Of a stretch of DNA of 64,000 bases, positions 18,221 to 34,890 are shown piece by piece. The stretch is from Bacteroidota bacterium. Lineage in GTDB: Bacteria; Bacteroidota; Bacteroidia; B-17B0; Aurantibacillaceae. The notes beneath the pieces were generated by a model. The model saw only the letters and a list, made by a program, of their open reading frames with translations. It was not told where the DNA came from and ran no database searches. The position numbers and the translations under genes were made by a program. The DNA is taken from the NCBI GenBank assembly GCA_030692515.1, contig JAUXZS010000028.1, forward strand, positions 124,001 through 188,000, in the 5' to 3' direction. Each line of letters begins with the position of its first letter. Within the stretch, counting starts at the first letter, position 1.

Positions 18221-18853
18221 TTAAAAAGTACTCAGTAATTTAATTTCATTTCTATACAATAGCAATTTCTTATCATTTTCAAGTTGCTTTAATAGTCGGG
18301 ATATTACTACCCTACTCGTTCCCATTTCTTCTGCTATTTGATTATGAGAAAGTAAAATAGATGATTTGCCGGTAACTTTTGTTTTATTTTTCAAATATTT
18401 AATCAAGCGCTCATCTAATTTATGAAAAGCAATACTCTCTATTGATTTTAAAAGCTCATTAAATCGTTGAGTAAAACTATTAAAAATATAACTCTTCCAA
18501 CTCGGAAATTTCACCAACCACTCATCTAGTTTTTCGTGAGGAATAGCAATTATTTCAACACTATCTTCTGCGATTGCTTTAATTTCACTTTTTCTAGCAT
18601 CCATACAACAGGTATAAGCCATGGCGCAACTTTCGTTTGAACTTAAATAATATAAAAGAATCTCTCTGTCTTCCTCATCTTTTCTCATCACCCTAATAGT
18701 TCCGCTTAATATCAATGGCATGAATTTTATTTTTTTGCCATAGTCCATTATTACATCACCTTCGTTAAAAGTCATTCTATTGCCAATAGAAATTATTTCA
18801 TCTATTAACTTCGGTTCAAAAATGTGTTTCAATTTATCTTTTATGTTTGACAT
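18221..18853 (-). CDS. Crp/Fnr family transcriptional regulator with Cys cluster
   Basis: A 210-residue Crp/Fnr regulator. The N-terminal cupin-like effector domain spans about residues 10-115, a dimerisation helix follows, and the C-terminal winged HTH has LSHNQIAEEMGTSRVVISRL near residues 162-181, containing the recognition helix. It lacks the N-terminal Cys cluster of E. coli FNR, but ESCAMAYTCCMDARKS places C76, C82 and C83 in the effector domain, suggesting redox, nitrosative or persulfide sensing. It lies 27 nt downstream of the SoxB-like gene, at the end of the run of sulfur genes that starts behind a motif B promoter at 25443-25487. It is the natural candidate to bind motif B or A. 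Confidence 0.85.
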   Translation of the reverse strand: MSNIKDKLKHIFEPKLIDEIISIGNRMTFNEGDVIMDYGKKIKFMPLILSGTIRVMRKDEEDREILLYYLSSNESCAMAYTCCMDARKSEIKAIAEDSVEIIAIPHEKLDEWLVKFPSWKSYIFNSFTQRFNELLKSIESIAFHKLDERLIKYLKNKTKVTGKSSILLSHNQIAEEMGTSRVVISRLLKQLENDKKLLLYRNEIKLLSTF

Positions 18854-18880
18854 ATAAAGTTTTAAATTACTAAAAATAAA

Positions 18881-20626
18881 TTATCTAAACTCATAGGTTG
18901 TACCCTTAAGTTGCGTTAATAAAGTTGGAGGCTCATCAGTTGCAGTTGCTCTTCCTTCTATTTTTGGAGAAACTGGCGAATGTACTTTTAAATAATCTAT
19001 AATTACATCATGCATTAATGTAGGCGTTTTTTTTGGATTTTTTACATGTTCAATTCTGCACAAGGTATCATCAGGATCGCCTTCACGCTCACATGCAACA
19101 ATACTATACTCTTTAGTTAAATCAATTGGCTCTCCAGCTACTTTAACAGAGTTTACACGTTTTCCAAATTCATTACCTATAGTGTAATTTACTTCGATAC
19201 CATTATACCTAACAAACCAACCACCAAAACGTTTTGACGGATCTTTAGCGAATGCATTTTGTAATTCTTTTTCTAACCAGTCCCAAACTTGCTTACCAGA
19301 AACAATACCAGTTTTTGCTTCACTATTTACGGGTAACATGTTCCATAAAAACTCCTTTGTAATTGTTGCTAAACCAGTTTTAGGATCAACTGCTAAAGGT
19401 TGGCAAAATCTAAAGCCATTTGATAAAGCAATATCTGGTTTAAATTTCCATTTAATAGCATCTGTAATTAAATTATCCATTGGCGTTTCCATAACAAAAT
19501 AACGCACTAAAGGAGTTTTACTTGTGCCAATAACAGTTTGCAGATCAATTTTAAAAGGCTCATAAGCTTTATCAACCAATGCTTGCATTTCTTTATCTGC
19601 CGGATATTTGACAGGGTCTACATCTAAGAGTTGGTAATCAATATTTACTAATTTATTATTTTCAATCTCTAATTCAAGTTTACCTAGAAAAGAACCAAAT
19701 GCTCCGCACTCAACAACTTTTGTGTATTTAGCTTGAATAGGAACTCTAACTCGCTCATGTGTATCGGCACCAATAATAATATCAACTCCTTCAGCCGCCG
19801 GGTTATTGGCTAAACCAACTTGTTGCGCCAATCCCATATGCGTTACAACTAGTATTACGGCACATCCTTCTACCTCGCGTAATAACTTTACATATTTCGC
19901 AATATTTTTTTCTGCATGTTCAAAACTTAAACCTTCGCTGTAAGCTGGCGATTGTCTTTTTGGAATTAAGTGATCTGTATACCCAATAAAACCAAGTTTT
20001 ACTCCTCCAATGTATTTAATCCAATATGGAGGATAAACTAATTCACCATTATCTGAATCATTCGTTTTATGATACATATTAGCGCAAATTTTCGCTGCAT
20101 TAACATGACCAAGGTCATACAACATTTTTTTCTTTTTATAAACAACTTCCCAATTACCGGGAAGCATCATATCATAATTTAAATTATTAAAAATAGGAAT
20201 TAGTGCCTCACCTTCTGTTAGAGAAGCCACAGCGTGCCCATGAAAAAAATCACCTCCATCATAAACAATTGTAGTTAACGGATTTTTTTTGCGATAACTC
20301 TCAATCATTGTTTTTAAAACTGCTAATCCACCGCGTTTACGATAAACAGAAGTATTATTTTCCCAAAAAAATTCATCGTGTGTATTTAATTGAGAATGAA
20401 TATCTGAGGTAATTAATATTGTAATGTTTTTAGATGTAATATTGTTGTTATTTAAATCTACTGTCAAATCTTTTGTAGGAATCACACCTTCTGCAAAATT
20501 TGATAATGGGTTAAAAGCAACAGCAACTCCAGCCAAGGCAGATTTTTTTAAAAAATCTCTACGATTATCAGATTTCATTTCTTTATTTTCTTTAGAATTC
20601 ATTTTAATTTCATTAATGCTTAACAA
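18881..20626 (-). CDS. soxB: SoxB-like Tat-exported metallohydrolase (5'-nucleotidase superfamily)
   Basis: A 581-residue periplasmic protein with a twin-arginine signal (NRRDFLKK at residues 21-28, then a hydrophobic stretch and SNFAEG). The metallophosphatase domain has SDIHSQ (74-79), GGDFFHG (124-130), GNWE (157-160), VTHMG and GADTHE. In ordinary 5'-nucleotidases the third motif is GNHE; a Trp at that place is a feature I associate with SoxB, the thiosulfohydrolase that releases sulfate from SoxY-bound thiosulfonate. The C-terminal 5'-nucleotidase domain follows. No soxYZ, soxAX or soxCD is in the window. An ATG at residue 9 is an alternative start. It may instead be another phosphoesterase. 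Confidence 0.65.
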   Translation of the reverse strand: MLSINEIKMNSKENKEMKSDNRRDFLKKSALAGVAVAFNPLSNFAEGVIPTKDLTVDLNNNNITSKNITILITSDIHSQLNTHDEFFWENNTSVYRKRGGLAVLKTMIESYRKKNPLTTIVYDGGDFFHGHAVASLTEGEALIPIFNNLNYDMMLPGNWEVVYKKKKMLYDLGHVNAAKICANMYHKTNDSDNGELVYPPYWIKYIGGVKLGFIGYTDHLIPKRQSPAYSEGLSFEHAEKNIAKYVKLLREVEGCAVILVVTHMGLAQQVGLANNPAAEGVDIIIGADTHERVRVPIQAKYTKVVECGAFGSFLGKLELEIENNKLVNIDYQLLDVDPVKYPADKEMQALVDKAYEPFKIDLQTVIGTSKTPLVRYFVMETPMDNLITDAIKWKFKPDIALSNGFRFCQPLAVDPKTGLATITKEFLWNMLPVNSEAKTGIVSGKQVWDWLEKELQNAFAKDPSKRFGGWFVRYNGIEVNYTIGNEFGKRVNSVKVAGEPIDLTKEYSIVACEREGDPDDTLCRIEHVKNPKKTPTLMHDVIIDYLKVHSPVSPKIEGRATATDEPPTLLTQLKGTTYEFR

Positions 20627-20633
20627 TTTACAA

Positions 20634-22049
20634 CTAAATTTTAAAATCTAATACAAAATTTAAGTTAATCATATTTACTTTATTGTAAACATATTTTAAA
20701 TTATTATAAGTCTCTCCTTGTTTAAGCTTATATGCCACAAGTATTTTCATTTCTAACCCTCTTAAAAAACGACTGAAAGTGTAGGATGCATCATAATTGA
20801 TTTGATGATAAGATGGTAAGCCGTATTTGTTTAATCTGTAATTTTTTACATCTGGTAAACTATAGTAACCATATCCTATACCGGTTTTAAATTTGTCATG
20901 AAATGCATTAATGGAACTTTTTATCATAAATGCATTAACATCCCCCAAGCCTTCATTTCGTTCACGAGGTAAAAAAGTGTAAAATGGTTCCTTACCCCAC
21001 TCACGAGGCATTAGATATCTGCCATCCCCAGTAATGTGTGTATAATTAACTGAAGTGTTTATTTTTTTTGTTTTAAATCCAAATTGTGCACTAATTACGT
21101 TTGATTGAGCTCCCTTGTTAATATAAGTTTTTTTCTGGTCTACATTTCCTCCATTATTAATTGCGTCTTGATGGAGATAAATTAAACCTTGATATAATTT
21201 CAAATTTTCATTTAATGTTTGATTAGTATTAATTTCGATCATTGCCGTATTCATAACGTTTTCTAACATCGCATTCCATACACTAAATTTTATTTTTTTT
21301 GTAGGTGCAAAATATATATTGGATATAGCCATACCTGTAGTAGAAATTTGTCCGTCATACTCAGATTTTGTTCCATCTAAATTAACCCCTGATGGATAAA
21401 CACCAATTGAGTTGGCGATAGAAAACCACTCAACGGTTGATCGGGGAGATATTTTCCAAAACCAACCTCCGTTAAATCCAATTTTTTTTGATTCATTAAT
21501 ATTTAACCAAACACCTTCTTCAAGTGTTGGTCGCATTCTACCATCTTGCGGATTTAAAAAAGGTGTGTTGATGTTCATCTTACCAAATACAATTGCACTT
21601 TTTGAAAAATTATATTTCAAGTATAATTCTTCTAATCTATCTAAATCTTTTCTATTTTTTGGATTTTGAATATCAAATAAGCCTAACTCATATCTATTTT
21701 GGTTACCTGTTAATGAGTCTAAGATTTCTATTTTTGTTGAGTATAAATTATAAATAAAAAAACCACTAATACCAATTTGGAATCCATATACCGGTTTCGT
21801 TAACACTCCAATTCCAGCTCCAGATGCCAATGCATAATCATCTTTCAGCGCGCCTTCATTTATTGTATTCATGAAAAATGTTCGGGAACGTGCTTCCCAA
21901 TGAGCTCCTAAAAAACAATCTTTTAAACAAGTAGAATCGTTTGGTTTTAAAAAAATATGATGGCCATCTTCTCCATTCTGATGAACTTGTTCTTGAGAAA
22001 AGATACCAGAAAACAATAGAGATAATAATCCTATTAAATAATATTTCAT
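20634..22049 (-). CDS. outer-membrane beta-barrel porin (OprD-like)
   Basis: A 471-residue protein with a signal peptide (cleavage near IFSQ), alternating aromatic/polar strands and a terminal FVLDFKI strand ending in an aromatic/hydrophobic pattern typical of barrels. AHWEARSRTFFMNT near residue 50 and PLATERNG-type mid-barrel loops resemble OprD-family specific porins. Position between tsdA-like and soxB-like genes suggests uptake of a sulfur compound or export of its product. It is 7 nt upstream of the soxB-like start; the 139 bp separating it from tsdA shows no operator of either class. Confidence 0.7.
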   Translation of the reverse strand: MKYYLIGLLSLLFSGIFSQEQVHQNGEDGHHIFLKPNDSTCLKDCFLGAHWEARSRTFFMNTINEGALKDDYALASGAGIGVLTKPVYGFQIGISGFFIYNLYSTKIEILDSLTGNQNRYELGLFDIQNPKNRKDLDRLEELYLKYNFSKSAIVFGKMNINTPFLNPQDGRMRPTLEEGVWLNINESKKIGFNGGWFWKISPRSTVEWFSIANSIGVYPSGVNLDGTKSEYDGQISTTGMAISNIYFAPTKKIKFSVWNAMLENVMNTAMIEINTNQTLNENLKLYQGLIYLHQDAINNGGNVDQKKTYINKGAQSNVISAQFGFKTKKINTSVNYTHITGDGRYLMPREWGKEPFYTFLPRERNEGLGDVNAFMIKSSINAFHDKFKTGIGYGYYSLPDVKNYRLNKYGLPSYHQINYDASYTFSRFLRGLEMKILVAYKLKQGETYNNLKYVYNKVNMINLNFVLDFKI

Positions 22050-22188
22050 ATTATTTGTTATTTAAATTAAAATAAAAGTTTGTAGTTTTCTTTAATAATT
22101 TTAATGCAAGCTTTGTTTTATGTACCAAAATGAGTCAATTAAAAAAAACTGTAATAATTTTTTTTAATGATTATTTAGATTAAATTAA

Positions 22189-23286
22189 TTATGCTTTTTT
22201 TTGTTTTTTCATTGCTTCTTGTTTCTCTTTTATTTGCTTAAAAGGGCCGTACTTATGTTGTTCCTCAGAAAAGCCATCTTTATATGGACCAAAAGGATGA
22301 TCAAATGGTTTTTCTTCAATTTTTGGCCAATCATTTTTCAAATCTTTTTTTGGTCGTGGTTGAGAATTAACAAAAGCCGCAACATCCCAAGCTTCTTCAT
22401 CACTTAATTGTGCTTCGTTGTGCGAAACTCCTAAAGGCATATTATATTTAACATACTTAGCGAAATTAGAAAGTCGATATAGTCCGGCACCATCATTATA
22501 ACTATTAGGTCCCCAAAGTGGCGGATAAGTGTAAGCAGATTTATCTCCGTTTAACGTTCCTAATCCATTAGACTGATGACAACTCTGGCATTTTAAAATG
22601 TATACTTCTTTACCTTTATCAGAGTCAGCTGCTCTGTCTAAAAATGTTATATCCTTAAAGCCAGAACCTTCCGGTTTTTTTCCTTTCACAACATCTTTAC
22701 CTATCCAATTAATATAAGACACAATAGCTTTCATTTCTTTGGAGGTTGTATCTAGCGCCTTCCCGTTTAAACTTCTTTCAAAACAATCGTTTACACGCTT
22801 GTAAATATTTTCAACAGCACCAGATCGTGCCCTAAATTTTGGATAAGTAGAAGATACAGCGCTATAATTATTTCCAAACACTTTTGTACCTGCCTCTAAA
22901 TGACAATTCTGACAATTCATTCCATTTATTGAGCCAATAAACACTTTACCTTTTGGACCAAAATAATCTGCGGTATGCGCAATTAAATCTTTCCCGTAAA
23001 GAATCTCATCTTTTTTTGGATTATCATTTAGTTCAGTTTCATTAGGTGCATGCCAATAAACAGAATTATCCTTTACAAGTTTTGCATTTTGTTTTGCTGC
23101 TTCAGTAAAATTCCCAAATTCATCGGGTGCAGGTATTTCAACCTTCTTTGTTGGTTTAGATTGCGGTAAATAAATTGCCAACAAAATTAGAAGAGCAATA
23201 ACAAATACCACCAAAACAACAATTATATTGTTTAGTTTAATAACTATTGGTGCTAAGGGATTTTCCTGATTCTCTTCCTTGTTCAT
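22189..23286 (-). CDS. tsdA: TsdA-like diheme cytochrome c (thiosulfate dehydrogenase / tetrathionate reductase)
   Basis: A 365-residue membrane-anchored periplasmic diheme cytochrome. A TM anchor is at about residues 18-40. Heme 1 motif is C125-QN-C128-H129; heme 2 motif is C233-QS-C236-H237. NDCFERSLNG with C168 corresponds to the unusual cysteine ligand of the active-site heme in TsdA, and PPLWGPNSYNDGAG (about 255-268) and M283 match the family's second domain. TsdA interconverts thiosulfate and tetrathionate. The Lys-rich C-terminal tail (365 aa total) is longer than in soluble TsdA. It lies in a run with YeeE/YedE, rhodanese and the SoxB-like gene. Confidence 0.85.
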   Translation of the reverse strand: MNKEENQENPLAPIVIKLNNIIVVLVVFVIALLILLAIYLPQSKPTKKVEIPAPDEFGNFTEAAKQNAKLVKDNSVYWHAPNETELNDNPKKDEILYGKDLIAHTADYFGPKGKVFIGSINGMNCQNCHLEAGTKVFGNNYSAVSSTYPKFRARSGAVENIYKRVNDCFERSLNGKALDTTSKEMKAIVSYINWIGKDVVKGKKPEGSGFKDITFLDRAADSDKGKEVYILKCQSCHQSNGLGTLNGDKSAYTYPPLWGPNSYNDGAGLYRLSNFAKYVKYNMPLGVSHNEAQLSDEEAWDVAAFVNSQPRPKKDLKNDWPKIEEKPFDHPFGPYKDGFSEEQHKYGPFKQIKEKQEAMKKQKKA

Positions 23287-23298
23287 ATCATTTTTTAA

Positions 23299-23712
23299 TT
23301 AATGCGGGAGCTTATCTTTTATAATACCATAAACATAAGTGCCGATAATTGCAAAAACAAAGACTACAATCATTGATAAATAACCATAGCCAATATTTAC
23401 AACCATAGGACCAGGACATGCTCCACTTAATGCCCAGCCTAACCCGAATATTGTGCCACCAATTAAATAACGTAGCACTGATTTTTCTTTTGGAAAAAAA
23501 CTTATTGGATTTCCAGAAAAATCACGAATCTTATATTTTTTAATTAATGATACACCAATTACTCCCAGAATAACTGCTGTGCCAATAATACCATACATGT
23601 GAAAAGCTTGAAACCGAAACATTTCCTGAATTCGAAACCAAGAAAAAGCTTCAGATTTTGCCATTACAATTCCAAACATAGTACCTAGTACTAAAAATTT
23701 AATAAATTTCAT
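23299..23712 (-). CDS. YeeE/YedE family membrane protein (second half)
   Basis: A 137-residue protein with about four TM helices and the conserved SGACPGPMVVNIGYG motif (Cys near residue 99). YeeE/YedE proteins import thiosulfate or related sulfane sulfur species through membrane cysteines; split two-gene versions (PmpA/PmpB) occur with persulfide dioxygenase genes. The partner half lies 4 nt upstream. Both are probably needed for one transporter. Confidence 0.85.
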   Translation of the reverse strand: MKFIKFLVLGTMFGIVMAKSEAFSWFRIQEMFRFQAFHMYGIIGTAVILGVIGVSLIKKYKIRDFSGNPISFFPKEKSVLRYLIGGTIFGLGWALSGACPGPMVVNIGYGYLSMIVVFVFAIIGTYVYGIIKDKLPH

Positions 23713-23716
23713 ATTC

Positions 23717-24274
23717 TTATAGAATTAAAGGGAGTAAAACAAATGTCATTAATAATCCACCAATAAAAAACCCAATCACGGCGATTAATGATGGTAGTTG
23801 AAGGTCTGATAATCCGCTGATAGCATGACCAGATGTACAGCCCCCAGCGTAACGAGAACCAAAACCAACCATTAATCCACCAAGCGCAAGAATTAGAAAT
23901 CCTTTTAATGAAAAAAGAGCTTCCATACTAAATAATTCATTTGGTTGAACTGATGTTGGCGCTGATATTCCAAGAGTTGCCAAATCGCTAATGGTGGCTT
24001 CTGAAATTAGGATAGGCTCCCCAGTAGAAAGAAATTGTTTTGCAATAAACCCCCCAAGGATTGCACCTATTAAAAAAACTAAATTCCAAATTTGGGAACG
24101 CCAGTTAAAATCAAAAAACTTTACAAATTTTCCTCCACCCGCTGCAGAACAAATGGTTCTTAAATTTGAAGAAAATCCAAAAGATTGTCCAAAAAACAAA
24201 AGTAAAAACATGGTTCCTGAAATGATAATTCCTGATACCCACCACGACCAGGGTTGACTAATATATTCTAACAT
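23717..24274 (-). CDS. YeeE/YedE family membrane protein (first half)
   Basis: A 185-residue polytopic protein with the second conserved YeeE/YedE motif, GSRYAGGCTSGHAISG (Cys near residue 147), plus a Cys in RTICSAAGGG. It forms a split transporter with the following gene (4 nt apart), by analogy with PmpA/PmpB and the full-length TsuA thiosulfate transporter. Its start is 2 nt after the preceding stress-protein gene, so the operon is very compact. Confidence 0.85.
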   Translation of the reverse strand: MLEYISQPWSWWVSGIIISGTMFLLLFFGQSFGFSSNLRTICSAAGGGKFVKFFDFNWRSQIWNLVFLIGAILGGFIAKQFLSTGEPILISEATISDLATLGISAPTSVQPNELFSMEALFSLKGFLILALGGLMVGFGSRYAGGCTSGHAISGLSDLQLPSLIAVIGFFIGGLLMTFVLLPLIL

Positions 24275-24276
24275 AA

Positions 24277-25113
24277 TTAATTATTTAAATGAAATGAAAT
24301 AATTGGTTTAAATAAATGTGCTACTAACTTTTCTGTTGTGCTTTTATTTAAAAACCCACTTTTACCTTTATTACCAATACAAATTATATCCATTTCATGC
24401 ATTTGATTAAAATGGATTACTCCACTTTCAATATCGGTATCATTCAATAAGTGTTTTTCGTAGTTAGTTATTGAATTTAAAGTTGCAAACAAATCCATCT
24501 TTTGAAGAATCGTTTTTTTATCCTCTTCAGATTGATCTGTAATTATTTGAAGTAAATGAGCTTTTGTATTAAATGCAGAAATTAGTTTATGTAACAAATC
24601 TAAATTCTCGTTCTTTGAATTTGTAAAGTCATGAACTAATAATACATTTTCAATTAATAAATCAGATCTATCACACATTAATGATAGTAATGGTATTTTG
24701 GAATGCCTTGAAATAACTTGAACTTCACTTCCAGACAGGGTTTCTTTTATCCCCCATGAACCTTTAGTACCCATTGCAATAAGGTCAAATTTGTTTTGTT
24801 CAGAATACATCACAATTTGGTCGGTTACTTTCCCTAAAACAAAATGTGTTTGTACACTTTCTCCATAAATAGTTTTTAGGTCGTTTAATTTTCTTTCAGC
24901 AATATTTTTTTGAGAAATCACAAAATCAAGGTTGATTTCCCCACAAGTATCTATATTACCATTTTTATCCATTGTTACAGTATCTGGAACATTTAGAACG
25001 TGGAGAAAGTGAATTTCTACAGGTATTTTTTCTTCGAGTTTTTTAACCATCAGATATGCATACTCCGCTTGAACTGAAAAATCAGTAGGGATTAAAACTT
25101 TTAATGATTCCAT
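24277..25113 (-). CDS. universal stress protein, tandem UspA domains
   Basis: A 278-residue cytoplasmic protein of two UspA-like domains. The N-terminal domain starts KVLIPTDFSVQAEYA and has an ATP-binding-like GTKGSWGIKETLSGSEV stretch (about 125-140). The second is more degenerate, ending CIGNKGKSGFLNKSTTEKLV. It lies 1 nt after the rhodanese stop and 2 nt before the YeeE/YedE pair. USP genes recur twice more in this window. Its role in sulfur stress is inferred from context only. Confidence 0.85.
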   Translation of the reverse strand: MESLKVLIPTDFSVQAEYAYLMVKKLEEKIPVEIHFLHVLNVPDTVTMDKNGNIDTCGEINLDFVISQKNIAERKLNDLKTIYGESVQTHFVLGKVTDQIVMYSEQNKFDLIAMGTKGSWGIKETLSGSEVQVISRHSKIPLLSLMCDRSDLLIENVLLVHDFTNSKNENLDLLHKLISAFNTKAHLLQIITDQSEEDKKTILQKMDLFATLNSITNYEKHLLNDTDIESGVIHFNQMHEMDIICIGNKGKSGFLNKSTTEKLVAHLFKPIISFHLNN

Positions 25114-25114
25114 A

Positions 25115-25426
25115 TTATTTTATGTGTTTATTTACGTTTTGCCAGCTTCCGCCGTTTGTTACATTTTTAAATCCTTTAGCTTGTAGTGTGCGCTGAGCCA
25201 TACCACTTCTGTTACCACTACGACAACACACAATAATATGGTTGTGTTTTTTTAGTTTATCACTGTTAGAACCAATATTTTCTAAAGGAATATTTACAGA
25301 ACCTTTTACATGTCCAGATGAAAATTCAGCTTTACTTCGAACATCAATAACAACAGCACCTTCTTTTATTAATTGGGATAAGTCAACTGAGTTTGATTTG
25401 AATAGATTTTTGAATATTGATAGCAT
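25115..25426 (-). CDS. single-domain rhodanese-like sulfurtransferase
   Basis: A 103-residue rhodanese with DVRSKAEFSSGHVKGSVNIPL near residue 28 and the active loop CCRSGNRSG (catalytic Cys near residue 69). It is very similar to the 11425 rhodanese: same short leader with L-x-x-GA-x-VIDVR and same C-terminal NGGSW ending. It is the first gene of the - strand run rhodanese-usp-yedE-yedE-tsdA-porin-soxB-crp and lies directly behind a motif B promoter. Confidence 0.88.
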   Translation of the reverse strand: MLSIFKNLFKSNSVDLSQLIKEGAVVIDVRSKAEFSSGHVKGSVNIPLENIGSNSDKLKKHNHIIVCCRSGNRSGMAQRTLQAKGFKNVTNGGSWQNVNKHIK

Positions 25427-25442
25427 ATATGTTTATTTTCTA

Positions 25443-25487
25443 CAAATTTAAATACAAGTTAATAATTTAACGGTTACAAATGTTACA
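25443..25487 (-). promoter_or_regulatory. motif B operator and -7 element of the rhodanese-tsdA-soxB run
   Basis: GGTTACAAATGTTACA at 25472-25487 matches motif B with two mismatches in the left arm. CAAATTTA at 25443-25450 reads TAAATTTG on -, a consensus -7 box whose TTTG begins 33.5 bp from the operator centre. The predicted transcript begins just before the rhodanese ATG (25426) and could reach the Crp/Fnr gene. Confidence 0.6.
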
Positions 25488-25494
25488 TAGCAAA

Positions 25495-25519
25495 AAAAGT
25501 GTCCAAATTGAACACTTTT
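25495..25519 (-). terminator. intrinsic terminator after cstB-1
   Basis: AAAAGTGT and ACACTTTT form an 8-bp stem with a 9-nt loop. Read on -, the stem ends in a run of seven T, as expected for termination downstream of the persulfide dioxygenase gene ending at 25547. Confidence 0.7.
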
Positions 25520-25546
25520 AAAGCAAAAAAACATTAAGATTTAAAA

Positions 25547-26965
25547 TTATAAAAGAGTAGTTGGACACACGTAATCAGTTACTTTAAATCTTGCACTACC
25601 CTTTAGTGCGTTAAAACCACCTGCAATATCAATAAGATTTCTGTAGCCTCTTGCCTGAAGAATCGAAATAAACACCATTGATCGGTAACCAGAAGCGCAG
25701 TGCACATAGTAAGTTTCGCTTTTATTAATTTTAAACATACTCTCATTAATAGTATCAAGAGGTGCATTAACAGCATCTAAAATATGTTCACTTTGATACT
25801 CACTTAGTTTTCTTACATCTAAAATATTTACTGTACCCTTATTATTTATTTCTGCTAAATCATTGGCACTAATTGATTTTATTGTATCAACTTCTTTCTT
25901 AGCATCAACCCATACAGGAAACCCACCTTTTAAATAACCTAATGCATTGTCGTAACCAACTCTTGCCAAACGGGTAATAACTTCTTCTTCCCTTCCCTCT
26001 TCGGCAACAATTAAGATTTCTTGTTTTAAGCTAGGCACTAATGTGCCAACCCATGTTGCAAAGCTTCCATCAATACAAATATTAATAGAATTAGGAATAA
26101 ATCCTTTATTAAAAACTTGTGAATTTCTTGTATCAATAATTAATGCTTGGGTTTCATTTGCTGCTACCTCAAACTCGTTTGCAGATAAAGCTCTTGTTCC
26201 CCTTTTCATAACATTGTCAAAACTCTCATATCCCTTAATATTTAACAAAACATTTTGAGGAAAATATCCTGGAGGGGGCACTAAACCAGTTAAAATTTCT
26301 TTTATAAATTGCTCTTTAGTTAATTTAGGATTAAGCGCATAGTTAACTTGTTTTTGATGACCTAGAGTATCGGTTGTTTCTTTGCTCATATTTTTTCCAC
26401 AAGCACTACCTGCTCCATGATTAGGATAAACAATTAAATCATCGCTTAACGGCATAATTTTATTTCGCAATGAATCGTAAAGATGTCCGGCTAATTTTTC
26501 TTCTGTTAATTCCGCAATAACATGTTGTGCTAAATCAGGTCGACCAACATCGCCAATAAATAAGGTATCGCCACTAATTATGCCGTGCTCTTTATTATTT
26601 TCATCAATTAATAAATAGGTTGTACTTTCCATAGTGTGACCAGGTGTATGAATCACCTTTACGCTGTATTTTCCAACTTTAAAAATTTGATTATCCTCAG
26701 CTACTATAGCTTTATATCCTGGTTTTGCAGTTGGTCCAAACACTATTTCTGCTCCGGCATTTTTAGCTAAATCTAAATGTCCACTAACAAAGTCTGCATG
26801 AAAATGTGTTTCAAAAACATATTTAATTTTTGCATTGTCTTTTTTTGCTCTGTCAATATAAGGCTGCACTTCTCTTAAAGGATCAAAGATTGCTGCCTCG
26901 CCATTGTTTTCTAAATAGTATGCTGCATGAGCAATACATCCTGTATAAATTTGTTCTACTTTCAT
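25547..26965 (-). CDS. cstB: CstB-like persulfide dioxygenase-rhodanese fusion (copy 1)
   Basis: A 472-residue cytoplasmic fusion. Residues 1-240 form a metallo-beta-lactamase persulfide dioxygenase domain with H54-F-H56-A-D58 and H63, HTPGHTMES near 110 and GDVGRPDLAQ near 157. A first rhodanese domain (about 265-350) lacks a catalytic Cys; its loop reads AEEGREEE. A second, active rhodanese (about 370-465) has HCASGYRS with C423. This is the CstB order (dioxygenase, pseudo-rhodanese, rhodanese), which oxidises low-molecular-weight persulfides to thiosulfate and so could feed TsdA and SoxB. It is closely related to the copy at 32552. Confidence 0.9.
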   Translation of the reverse strand: MKVEQIYTGCIAHAAYYLENNGEAAIFDPLREVQPYIDRAKKDNAKIKYVFETHFHADFVSGHLDLAKNAGAEIVFGPTAKPGYKAIVAEDNQIFKVGKYSVKVIHTPGHTMESTTYLLIDENNKEHGIISGDTLFIGDVGRPDLAQHVIAELTEEKLAGHLYDSLRNKIMPLSDDLIVYPNHGAGSACGKNMSKETTDTLGHQKQVNYALNPKLTKEQFIKEILTGLVPPPGYFPQNVLLNIKGYESFDNVMKRGTRALSANEFEVAANETQALIIDTRNSQVFNKGFIPNSINICIDGSFATWVGTLVPSLKQEILIVAEEGREEEVITRLARVGYDNALGYLKGGFPVWVDAKKEVDTIKSISANDLAEINNKGTVNILDVRKLSEYQSEHILDAVNAPLDTINESMFKINKSETYYVHCASGYRSMVFISILQARGYRNLIDIAGGFNALKGSARFKVTDYVCPTTLL

Positions 26966-32148: not shown

Positions 32149-32520
32149 TTATTTTACTTTACAGGTTACGTTTTGCCAAGGCCCTAGATTTTCAATTTCC
32201 TTGGTATACCCAGCTTCAACTAATTTATGTTTTGCTAATCCAGCACGATTTCCACTTCTGCAAACCAAAACAACCTTGTCGTACTTTTTTAGTTCCTCAA
32301 TTTTATTTTCAAATTGATCTAATGGGTAATTTACAGAACAATCTGCATGACCATCTTCATTCCATTCTTCAGTTGTTCTAACATCTACAATAATTTCGTT
32401 TTTTGTTATTCCGGTGTTATTTGAATTTTCCATGTCGTTTTTAGTTTTAATTTGTGAGTCGCATTGTGTTATTGAAAACAATAAAACTGCGGTCCCAAGT
32501 AGTGATTTAATTTTTTTCAT
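32149..32520 (-). CDS. exported (probably lipoprotein) rhodanese-like protein
   Basis: A 123-residue rhodanese domain with an N-terminal signal whose LLFSITQC suggests a lipobox (Cys near residue 20), so it is probably periplasmic and lipid-anchored. DVRTTEEWNEDGHADCSVNYPL opens the domain and LVCRSGNRAG is the active loop (Cys near 87). It differs from the other two single-domain rhodaneses in being exported. It lies 31 nt after cstB-2 in a compact run with three small Cys-containing membrane proteins. Confidence 0.85.
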   Translation of the reverse strand: MKKIKSLLGTAVLLFSITQCDSQIKTKNDMENSNNTGITKNEIIVDVRTTEEWNEDGHADCSVNYPLDQFENKIEELKKYDKVVLVCRSGNRAGLAKHKLVEAGYTKEIENLGPWQNVTCKVK

Positions 32521-32551: not shown

Positions 32552-33967
32552 TTAAGACTTTTGTAATTTGCTTTGGCAAACAAAATCTGTTTTAGGAACT
32601 GCTGTATCAGCAATAGCTTTAAAACCACCTTCAATCTCTTTAAAATTATGAACGCCTCGAGATTTTAAAATACTTGATGCAATCATACTTCTGTAGCCAC
32701 CAGCACAGTGAATATAAAATGGTTTTTCATTATCCATCTCTGCAAACCATCCATTAATTTGATCTAAAGGCTTATTAAAAGCTTCGTCAACGTGCTCTGC
32801 CGAATATTCGCTTTCTTTTCTCACATCAACAATTGTATCTGCTTTTGTATTTATTTCTTTAGCGAATTGTGAAGCAGTAATTCTGTTTACGGTATCAATT
32901 TCTTTCCCTGTTTTTGCCCAAGCTTCAAAACTTCCTTTTAAATGCCCCAGTATATTATCAAAACCAACACGACTTAAACGCGTCACCGTTTCCTCCTCTT
33001 TACCAGGCTCTGTTATTAATAAAATAGGTTGATTAACATCTTTAATTAAAGCTCCAACCCAAGGTGCAAAATCACCATTAATACCAATATTAATTGACTT
33101 AGGAATAAATCCTTTTGCAAATTCAGCGGAGTCTCTAGTATCAATCATTATAGCATCTGTAGTTTCTGCAGCGGTCTCAAATTCTAAGGGTGATAAAGCT
33201 CTCATGCCGTTATTTAAAACAGTATCAAAACTTTCATAACCTTTTTTATTCATAGCTACATTCATTCCAAAATAACCTGGAGGCGGAAGTAATCCATCAG
33301 TAACTGCCTTTACAAACTCTTCTTTATTAGGTTGATTTAAAGCATAATTTACTTTTTTCTGATTACCTAAAGTGTCAACCGTTTCTTTCATCATGTTTTT
33401 TCCACAAGCACTTCCAGCGCCATGAGCAGGATAAACAACTACATCATTTGCCAATGGCATTATTTTGTTGTTTAATGAATCATACAATAACCCTGCTAAT
33501 TCTTCTTGCGTCATAGATGCAGCTTTTTGAGCTAAATCAGGGCGACCAACATCTCCTAAAAACAAAGTATCGCCACTAAATAATGAATGATCTTTACCAT
33601 TTTCATCTCTCAAAAGAAAACATGTGCTTTCCATTGTGTGGCCAGGAGTATGCAATACTTTAATTGTAATATCTCCTAATTTAAACTCTTCACCATCTAA
33701 AGCTATAATTGCTTTAAATTCTGGATTTGCTGTTGGTCCATAAACTATTGGTGCACCAGTTTTTTTACTTAAATCTAAATGACCAGAAACAAAATCAGCA
33801 TGAAAGTGTGTTTCAAAAATATATTTTATTTTAACGCCATCTCTATTTGCGCGATCAATATATGGTTGCACCTCTCTTAAAGGATCAATAATTGCTGCTT
33901 CACCATTAGACGTGATATAATAAGCTCCTTGAGCTAAGCATCCTGTATAAATTTGTTCTATTTTCAT
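32552..33967 (-). CDS. cstB: CstB-like persulfide dioxygenase-rhodanese fusion (copy 2)
   Basis: A 471-residue paralogue of the gene at 25547 with the same layout. The MBL persulfide dioxygenase domain has THFHADFVSGH near residue 53 and HTPGHTMES near 110; the first rhodanese lacks a catalytic Cys (loop TEPGKEEE); the second is active with HCAGGYRS, C421. The two copies are alike throughout but clearly diverged, so this is not a recent duplication. This copy heads the run cstB-rhodanese-three small membrane proteins behind a motif B promoter, whereas copy 1 is behind motif A. Confidence 0.9.
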   Translation of the reverse strand: MKIEQIYTGCLAQGAYYITSNGEAAIIDPLREVQPYIDRANRDGVKIKYIFETHFHADFVSGHLDLSKKTGAPIVYGPTANPEFKAIIALDGEEFKLGDITIKVLHTPGHTMESTCFLLRDENGKDHSLFSGDTLFLGDVGRPDLAQKAASMTQEELAGLLYDSLNNKIMPLANDVVVYPAHGAGSACGKNMMKETVDTLGNQKKVNYALNQPNKEEFVKAVTDGLLPPPGYFGMNVAMNKKGYESFDTVLNNGMRALSPLEFETAAETTDAIMIDTRDSAEFAKGFIPKSINIGINGDFAPWVGALIKDVNQPILLITEPGKEEETVTRLSRVGFDNILGHLKGSFEAWAKTGKEIDTVNRITASQFAKEINTKADTIVDVRKESEYSAEHVDEAFNKPLDQINGWFAEMDNEKPFYIHCAGGYRSMIASSILKSRGVHNFKEIEGGFKAIADTAVPKTDFVCQSKLQKS

Positions 33968-34089: not shown

Positions 34090-34890
34090 CTATTTTAAAA
34101 GCGTTTCCTTTATTATAATATAAATACCCATTAATAATACAAACCAACCAAAGATTGGTTTAAGTTTTGCTCCATCAATTTTTTTAGAAAAGTAAATACC
34201 TATAAAAATACCAACAGTTGCAAATGCAGAAACCATTGCTAATAAACTCCAGTCAATTACAGCCTCTCCCCCTTCTCCAAAAAATCCAATTAGAGATTTT
34301 GCTGCTATAATAACAAGCGAAGTTCCAACAGCTTCTTTCATTGGTAGTTTTGATAAAAGAACTAATGCTGGAATAATTAAAAATCCACCGCCTGCTCCAA
34401 CTAAACCAGTAACTAAACCAACAACAGCTCCTTCAATTAAAATCACAGGGTAATTAAATTTTTGAGGACCAAAATCCGTATCCTTTTTCTTTTTATCTTT
34501 TTTAATCATGCTATAAGAAGCAGCAACCATTAATATTGCAAATAACAACATCATTAAAATGCTTTTGGTAACAACAAAATCACCTACAGCAAATACCTCT
34601 TTTGGAATTGCAGGTACTATATAAGCTCTTGTTAAAAAAACTGAAATAATGGAAGGGATTCCAAAAACCACAGCTGTTTTAATATTTACTAGACCCTTTT
34701 TGAAATAACCAACTGAGCCAACTGCACTTGTAAAACCAACAATAAATAAAGAATATGAGGTTGCAGCCACCGCATCAATTGAAAAAAGATATACCAAAAC
34801 AGGCACAGTTAATATACTACCACCACTGCCTATAAGACCAAGTGAAACACCTATTAAAATTGAAGATACATATCCGATAATTTCCATCAT
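34090..34890 (-). CDS. TauE/SafE family sulfite exporter
   Basis: A 266-residue inner-membrane protein with about eight TM helices. Duplicated TauE/SafE signatures are visible: IGSGGSILTVPVLVYL near residue 20 and VGAGGGFLIIPALVLL near 167. Family members export sulfite, sulfoacetate or related anions; here it could remove sulfite made by persulfide dioxygenase. It has its own motif B promoter and lies upstream of cstB-2 on the same strand. Confidence 0.9.
   Translation of the reverse strand: MMEIIGYVSSILIGVSLGLIGSGGSILTVPVLVYLFSIDAVAATSYSLFIVGFTSAVGSVGYFKKGLVNIKTAVVFGIPSIISVFLTRAYIVPAIPKEVFAVGDFVVTKSILMMLLFAILMVAASYSMIKKDKKKKDTDFGPQKFNYPVILIEGAVVGLVTGLVGAGGGFLIIPALVLLSKLPMKEAVGTSLVIIAAKSLIGFFGEGGEAVIDWSLLAMVSAFATVGIFIGIYFSKKIDGAKLKPIFGWFVLLMGIYIIIKETLLK

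Follow-up and report, generated by a model that had tools for sequence, protein, structure and literature searches.

A TsdA-YedE-SoxB-like gene run in a Bacteroidota genome as a probable form of the carrier-free thiosulfate route of Erythrobacter flavus

The 64-kb stretch of Bacteroidota DNA analyzed here (contig JAUXZS010000028.1; called the window, with all coordinates given as positions in it and its genome labeled G000) contains a co-directional gene run on the minus strand (18221-26965) which encodes, in order of transcription, a metallo-beta-lactamase (MBL)-rhodanese fusion, a rhodanese, a universal stress protein (Usp), two YedE halves, the thiosulfate dehydrogenase TsdA, an OprD-type porin, a SoxB-like hydrolase and a Crp regulator. 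Our analysis indicates that this run is quite likely a Bacteroidota version of the route via TsdA, SoxB and a sulfur dioxygenase known from Erythrobacter flavus, and kinship to the E. flavus system makes a free polythionate released by TsdA probably the best-supported substrate of the SoxB-like protein. A preliminary description, made from the sequence, had listed the order rhodanese-usp-yedE-yedE-tsdA-porin-soxB-like-crp. Open reading frames and domain searches confirmed these genes at their positions; the list had left out the next co-directional gene, the MBL-rhodanese fusion at 25547-26965. All genes of the run lie on one strand and are separated by 1-139 bp, which is consistent with one or two transcripts.

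The window genome comprises 4.33 Mb in 68 contigs and is rated 100% complete. The preliminary description had noted the lack of a SoxYZ carrier within the window and had allowed that SoxYZ might be encoded elsewhere; the lack extends to the whole genome and no such second site was found. A profile search for SoxY (PF13501) in 30 genomes matched all four genomes of family f19 (4/4), which we regard as Chlorobi-like on account of their canonical sox genes, and none of the 26 others including G000, and a search for SoxZ (PF08770) in 25 genomes matched the four family f19 controls (4/4) and none of the 21 others. Neither SoxY nor SoxZ was found in the 18 other sampled genomes that carry the SoxB-like clade described below. 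SoxA (TIGR04484) exceeded its cut-off in 0/3 genomes of the window's kind vs 3/3 controls (two f19 genomes and one Paracoccus plasmid record), and its weak matches in G000 were only two TsdA-like cytochromes with 41 and 33 bits (cut-off 110), the TsdA of the window and a further TsdA-like protein encoded on contig C1. SoxC (TIGR04555) matched the Paracoccus control and nothing in G000; it exceeded the cut-off in G300, one genome carrying the SoxB-like clade. The complete sox operon elsewhere in the genome that had been raised as a counter-indication did not appear: SoxY, SoxZ, SoxA and SoxC were not found in G000, the genome-wide searches having covered these four and not SoxX or SoxD.

The best NCBIfam match of the SoxB-like protein was SoxB (TIGR04486) with 248 bits, under the cut-off of 550, and in a genome scan with the same model it scored 240.7 bits as compared with 844-851 bits for the four controls. 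Its twin-arginine signal (TIGR01409 over cut-off, NRRDFLKK at residue 21) fits a periplasmic enzyme. A tree computed from 69 proteins placed the window protein in a clade with 100/100 support. This clade also holds 18 sampled orthologs, three plasmid copies (two from Runella, one from Pontibacter) and two copies from Erythrobacteraceae; its 21 other Bacteroidota members are 42-60% identical to the window protein. The canonical SoxBs grouped separately (100/100, five rows), and four nucleotidases together with one G079 protein were placed behind a 96/97 branch. In a reduced tree with six rows fewer, the support of the window clade was still 100/100 and that of the canonical SoxBs 100/99 with four rows. 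L083 was excluded from both trees, and the reduced tree was also computed without two Cetobacterium, Haloarcula, G079, G047 and Meiothermus (long branches or unclear kind). The window protein stood outside the nucleotidase group in both trees, so the phylogeny against SoxB and 5'-nucleotidases that had been suggested as a check separates it from the latter; the nucleotidases form long branches and their deep order is unsure. Some rows are near-copies of each other (L007/L061, L010/L011 and the two X copies introduced below), so that counts over clade members are not independent.

When the sequences were aligned on E. coli UshA, the columns of D41, H43, D84, N116 and H217 were retained in 24/24 clade members. 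The H117 column holds Trp in 24/24 clade members (W159 in the window protein) and in 4/4 canonical SoxBs, the D120 column Val or Ile in 24/24 clade members (V162 in the window protein) and Thr in the four canonical SoxBs, and the H252 column Asp in 23/24 clade members and Gly in L008. We take H117 and D120 to be the catalytic His-Asp pair of UshA and H252 to be a metal ligand. Nor does this alignment preserve the UshA columns of the nucleotide-binding Arg and Phe residues, although the point is weak: two of these columns have an Arg no more than two positions away. The spacing from DxH to GGD is 47-48 residues in 24/24 clade members vs 89-91 in the four canonical SoxBs, corresponding to an insertion of about 42 residues in the latter. 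The predicted model of the window protein (mean predicted local distance difference test score 78.4, residues 1-63 unreliable) was closest in fold to T. thermophilus SoxB (Z 39.5, root-mean-square deviation (rmsd) 2.1, 480 residues), followed by nucleotidases (best Z 36.7, rmsd 3.2). By the tests made here, the window protein is a SoxB relative, yet neither a canonical SoxB nor a 5'-nucleotidase; it is set outside canonical SoxB by its score under the cut-off, its separate clade, the missing insertion and the lack of SoxYZ in its genome.

A TsdA-SoxB(-sulfur dioxygenase) route that dispenses with the Sox complex has been in print since 2020 (PMC7608252), with an extension in 2022 (PMC9426585). 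The suggestion of the preliminary description that the window holds a previously undescribed sulfur oxidation module does not stand against these reports. According to the passages of the first report available to us, most typical thiosulfate-oxidation genes are absent from E. flavus 21-3, its sulfur globules are nearly gone upon deletion of tsdA or soxB (D0Y83_01365), the soxB mutant still converts thiosulfate to tetrathionate, which rises while no zero-valent sulfur is formed, and Bacteroidetes are already listed among the genomes with tsdA and soxB homologs (PMC7608252). A passage of the second describes that sulfur is still formed by the tsdA mutant when tetrathionate is supplied (PMC9426585). 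A metagenome study of 2025, as excerpted, already reads the joint presence of TsdA and a SoxB unaccompanied by other sox genes as indicating the route, a combination seen in 8/21 genomes (PMC12345210).

We located the relation to E. flavus more closely in the family of Pelagerythrobacter, in which 5/298 genomes match the window protein (E-value (E) 1e-25). Two of these, G395 (Pelagerythrobacter aerophilus) and G680, carry three SoxB-like genes, X, Y and Z, clustered with TsdA, and X belongs to the window clade. In both genomes five genes lie between X and TsdA (YAcAr, SBP, COX1, FixO, cytochrome c), one between TsdA and Y (metal ATPase) and five between Y and Z (kinase, regulator, redoxin, DsbA, DsbD). 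The E. flavus tags 01365 (soxB), 01395 (tsdA), 01405 and 01435 would allow 5, 1 and 5 genes in between if tags are stepped by five. From this gene order, X appears to be the counterpart of the required E. flavus soxB 01365, which would place the latter in the window's clade. E. flavus 21-3 and the window share TsdA, an MBL-rhodanese dioxygenase, the lack of a Sox complex and a SoxB-like protein that carries the annotation metallophosphatase/5'-nucleotidase. They differ in that the window run adds OprD, the YedE pair, Usp and Crp, has one SoxB-like gene instead of three, and contains no oxidase or Dsb genes.

The gene set recurs in the phylum. At E 1e-30, the window SoxB-like protein matched 47/395 genomes; a clade member was present in 19 of these 47 genomes including G000 (E 1e-151 or better), and the remaining matches are weaker relatives. 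TsdA was found in 44/395 genomes (E 1e-30), namely in 14/19 clade genomes vs 30/376 others (Fisher p 4e-11, uncorrected for kinship), and it lies less than 12 kb from the SoxB-like gene in 11 of the 14 clade genomes having both. In the 20-kb stretches around the 18 orthologs, TsdA was near full length in nine and present as a fragment only in two, a YedE half was matched in nine, OprD in nine and the MBL-rhodanese fusion in ten. Most of the set is also present on plasmids of Runella rosea, R. slithyformis and Pontibacter akesuensis, of which only that of P. akesuensis is typed mobilizable; a search verified TsdA for two of these plasmids, and the P. akesuensis stretch has no annotated OprD.

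Other arrangements were seen as well. In three loci of one genus (L037, L042 and L044) the SoxB-like gene stands beside a c-type cytochrome (by family test in L037 and L042, by eye in L044) with TsdA elsewhere in the genome, and in L042 it also adjoins an M20 peptidase gene. In L047 (9441-11932) and L048 (9258-11793) it stands beside DoxX and DsrE-like genes, and no TsdA was detected at E 1e-30; a DoxX-type protein might make tetrathionate there in TsdA's place. A distant SoxB-like gene on a Haloarcula plasmid (L075, 2899-5896) is followed by an MBL-fold gene, with thioredoxin and glutaredoxin genes nearby.

Taken as a pathway, the run would work as follows. Thiosulfate and possibly other sulfur oxyanions would enter through the OprD porin, and periplasmic TsdA would form tetrathionate from two molecules of thiosulfate. 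The SoxB-like enzyme, exported by the Tat system and presumably holding two metal ions, would hydrolyze this free tetrathionate with no need of SoxYZ, giving sulfate and a sulfane-sulfur product. The YedE pair would import the sulfane sulfur (or thiosulfate), the rhodaneses would relay it, the MBL-rhodanese dioxygenases would oxidize it to sulfite, and sulfite would perhaps be exported by TauE. The gene set and its recurrence, the lack of SoxY and SoxZ, the clade, the residues and the predicted fold are results of the present analysis; we infer the substrate, the order of steps, the number of metal ions and the role of each transport protein. Carrier-free hydrolysis is plausible in that canonical SoxB is reported, in a passage of earlier work, to be active on free trithionate (PMC5336275). 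Concerning the free substrate proposed in the preliminary description, either a thiosulfonate or a polythionate made by TsdA, it is the polythionate that the kinship to E. flavus favors.

Several points weigh against this reading. The passage just cited also states that Sox enzymes in isolated form fail to convert the substrates proposed for them (PMC5336275), and the accessible part of a 2024 Hyphomicrobium study gives no sign that PmpAB, a two-part YedE, serves sulfur oxidation (PMC11582611), which makes YedE import the weakest step. Five of the 18 ortholog neighborhoods match no other query gene, five of the 19 clade genomes are without TsdA at E 1e-30, and three have it unlinked. With regard to E. 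flavus, gene order is the sole link between X and 01365, and X is 40% identical to the window protein. The dioxygenase side differs, with three tags between sdoA and soxB vs about five genes in G395 and G680. As the clusters of these two genomes are 95-100% identical, they count as one observation. Both X genes are interrupted by an in-frame stop, whose position differs between the two (L175, 10991-12646; G680:C1:1567084-1568616) and for which decay and sequencing error are both possible. In addition, later E. flavus work, as far as its excerpts go, names two SoxB homologs, SoxB-277 and SoxB-285; from the spacing, our guess is that these are 01365 and 01405.

Table 1. Features of the gene run and outlying candidates in the window.
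Feature	Position	Strand	Evidence and remarks
Crp/Fnr-type regulator, 210 aa	18221..18853	-	PF00027 (cNMP_binding) and PF13545 (HTH_Crp) over cut-off
SoxB-like hydrolase (putative two-metal), twin-arginine signal	18881..20626	-	Metallophos PF00149 and 5_nucleotid_C PF02872; TIGR04486 best NCBIfam match
OprD-type outer-membrane porin	20634..22049	-	PF03573, E 2e-15
TsdA, diheme thiosulfate dehydrogenase	22189..23286	-	PF21342 (SoxA/TsdA cytochrome) and PF00034 (Cytochrom_C)
YedE half (DUF6691/PmpB-like)	23299..23712	-	PF04143 (Sulf_transp) and PF20398 over cut-off
Second YedE half	23717..24274	-	PF04143 over cut-off
Universal stress protein family (Usp)	24277..25113	-	PF00582
Single-domain rhodanese	25115..25426	-	PF00581; by eye no signal peptide
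MBL-rhodanese fusion, sulfur/persulfide dioxygenase-like	25547..26965	-	PF00753 and two PF00581 stretches
Second rhodanese, outlying, membership uncertain	32149..32520	-	PF00581; N-terminus lipoprotein-like by eye
Second MBL-rhodanese fusion, outlying, membership uncertain	32552..33967	-	61% to first, 470 aa
TauE/SafE exporter, outlying, membership uncertain	34090..34890	-	PF01925, E 1.2e-44

The features are listed in Table 1. Window TsdA matched the solved A. vinosum-type TsdA 4wqc with E 1.1e-43, retains the CFERSLNG stretch and begins with a hydrophobic N-terminal stretch visible in the sequence; a second TsdA-like cytochrome with 43% identity to it is encoded on a separate contig (G000:C1:17878-18738). 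The first MBL-rhodanese fusion matched the structures 3tp9 (E 1.2e-65) and ETHE1 4chl (E 2.5e-10) and is 31% identical to its G680 homolog over 467 aa; with the sulfur dioxygenase model NF040641 it scored 42 bits, far under the 625-bit cut-off. The TauE exporter is 61% identical to TauE in the ortholog cluster L031. The Crp-type gene is the probable regulator of the run and has homologs with 39-41% identity in L035, L041 and L045. It contains a Cys-rich stretch, SCAMAYTCCM, in place of which the homologs of L041 and L045, both in sulfur-gene stretches, show CAISMIC; the protein could sense sulfane sulfur. No Rfam model matched the window over threshold, no tRNA was present in it, and a single scan of viral contigs with the window SoxB-like protein gave zero matches and no link to a virus.

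The main rival explanation is a substitute carrier, such as a periplasmic DsrE or a rhodanese, which would replace SoxYZ and present a bound thiosulfonate to the SoxB-like enzyme as its substrate. DsrE-type genes occur near the SoxB-like gene in L031, L032, L035, L038, L041, L043 and both Runella plasmids and adjoin it in L048; L047 has a weak DsrE match nearby, below the Pfam cut-off. Some of these neighboring DsrE-type proteins start with a signal-like stretch (by eye), and the second rhodanese of the window is lipoprotein-like. Against this, no DsrE match was found in the window, the sole DsrE of G000 lies on another contig, and the E. flavus data, in the passages cited above, point to free tetrathionate. 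DsrE as a required carrier was rejected on its absence from the window, and we regard a substitute carrier in general as unlikely. Still less probable is that the protein is a periplasmic 5'-nucleotidase or other phosphohydrolase which neighbors sulfur genes by chance. PF02872 and PF00149 are over their cut-offs, the overall fold is alike, and relatives are publicly annotated as "bifunctional metallophosphatase/5'-nucleotidase", but the replacement of the catalytic His and of its Asp partner throughout the clade and the position outside the nucleotidase group in two trees led us to reject this identity, and the recurrence of sulfur genes as neighbors speaks against chance. That the protein is a canonical SoxB whose SoxYZ fell into an assembly gap, conceivable with 68 contigs, or is too diverged to be detected is highly improbable given the completeness rating, the empty searches in G000 and 18 other clade genomes with 4/4 controls matching, a score about 300 bits under the cut-off and the lack of the insertion seen in the four aligned canonical SoxBs.

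Relative to canonical SoxB of Paracoccus, Meiothermus and family f19, the window protein shares the overall fold, most metal positions and the Trp at the nucleotidase His position. It differs in about 25% identity, the separate clade, the absence of the insertion of about 42 residues and a genome without SoxY and SoxZ; moreover, it has Asn, not His, at the UshA N116 column and DTHER instead of HTHD. A sister SoxB-like group from Sphingomonadales, Bradyrhizobium, Bacillota and archaea likewise has Trp at the nucleotidase His position, whereas it retains HWE and GHTHN and is 27-33% identical to the window protein; among the matches listed, its 80 loci gave no match to SoxY or SoxZ. Loci of this group (L079-L158, e.g. 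L101, L105, L115 and L126) come from methanogens, Asgard and Bathyarchaeota metagenome-assembled genomes, Bacillota and Chloroflexi, among the matches listed, and three Methanoculleus loci have a DsrE-like gene immediately after the SoxB-like gene. By gene order, the member of the sister group in E. flavus is 01435, described in a passage of the 2020 report as dispensable for sulfur globules (PMC7608252).

The fold of TetH, the tetrathionate hydrolase of Acidithiobacillus, presumably differs from the nucleotidase/SoxB fold predicted for the window protein. Compared by description only, and as far as the cited excerpt goes, TetH resembles the window protein in the proposed reaction on tetrathionate and differs in that it is described for acidophiles (PMC10859504).

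The window run is a further, related case of the known E. flavus route with some features of its own. Possibly new are the alteration of the metal site, the plasmid clusters of Bacteroidota and the transport genes; a description of the DTHER clade and its plasmid clusters was not found in the open-licence literature, which is weak evidence of novelty and not proof. We see about an even chance that the clade represents a distinct kind of enzyme, a SoxB-related polythionate hydrolase that needs no carrier, lacks the canonical insertion, has Asp for His at one metal ligand, occurs with TsdA and YedE on Bacteroidota chromosomes and plasmids as well as in some Alphaproteobacteria and goes under the database name 5'-nucleotidase.

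Sulfur-cycle surveys, as passages such as one in PMC6704655 illustrate, treat the presence of soxB as indicating the Sox pathway and rely on trees to separate it from 5'-nucleotidases. If the clade is a carrier-free tetrathionate hydrolase, Bacteroidota would have a thiosulfate-to-sulfur route that soxB surveys can miss. In that case the residue marks NWE and DTHER would help to separate the clade from both canonical SoxB and 5'-nucleotidases, and the protein would offer a simple enzyme for studying SoxB chemistry without SoxYZ.

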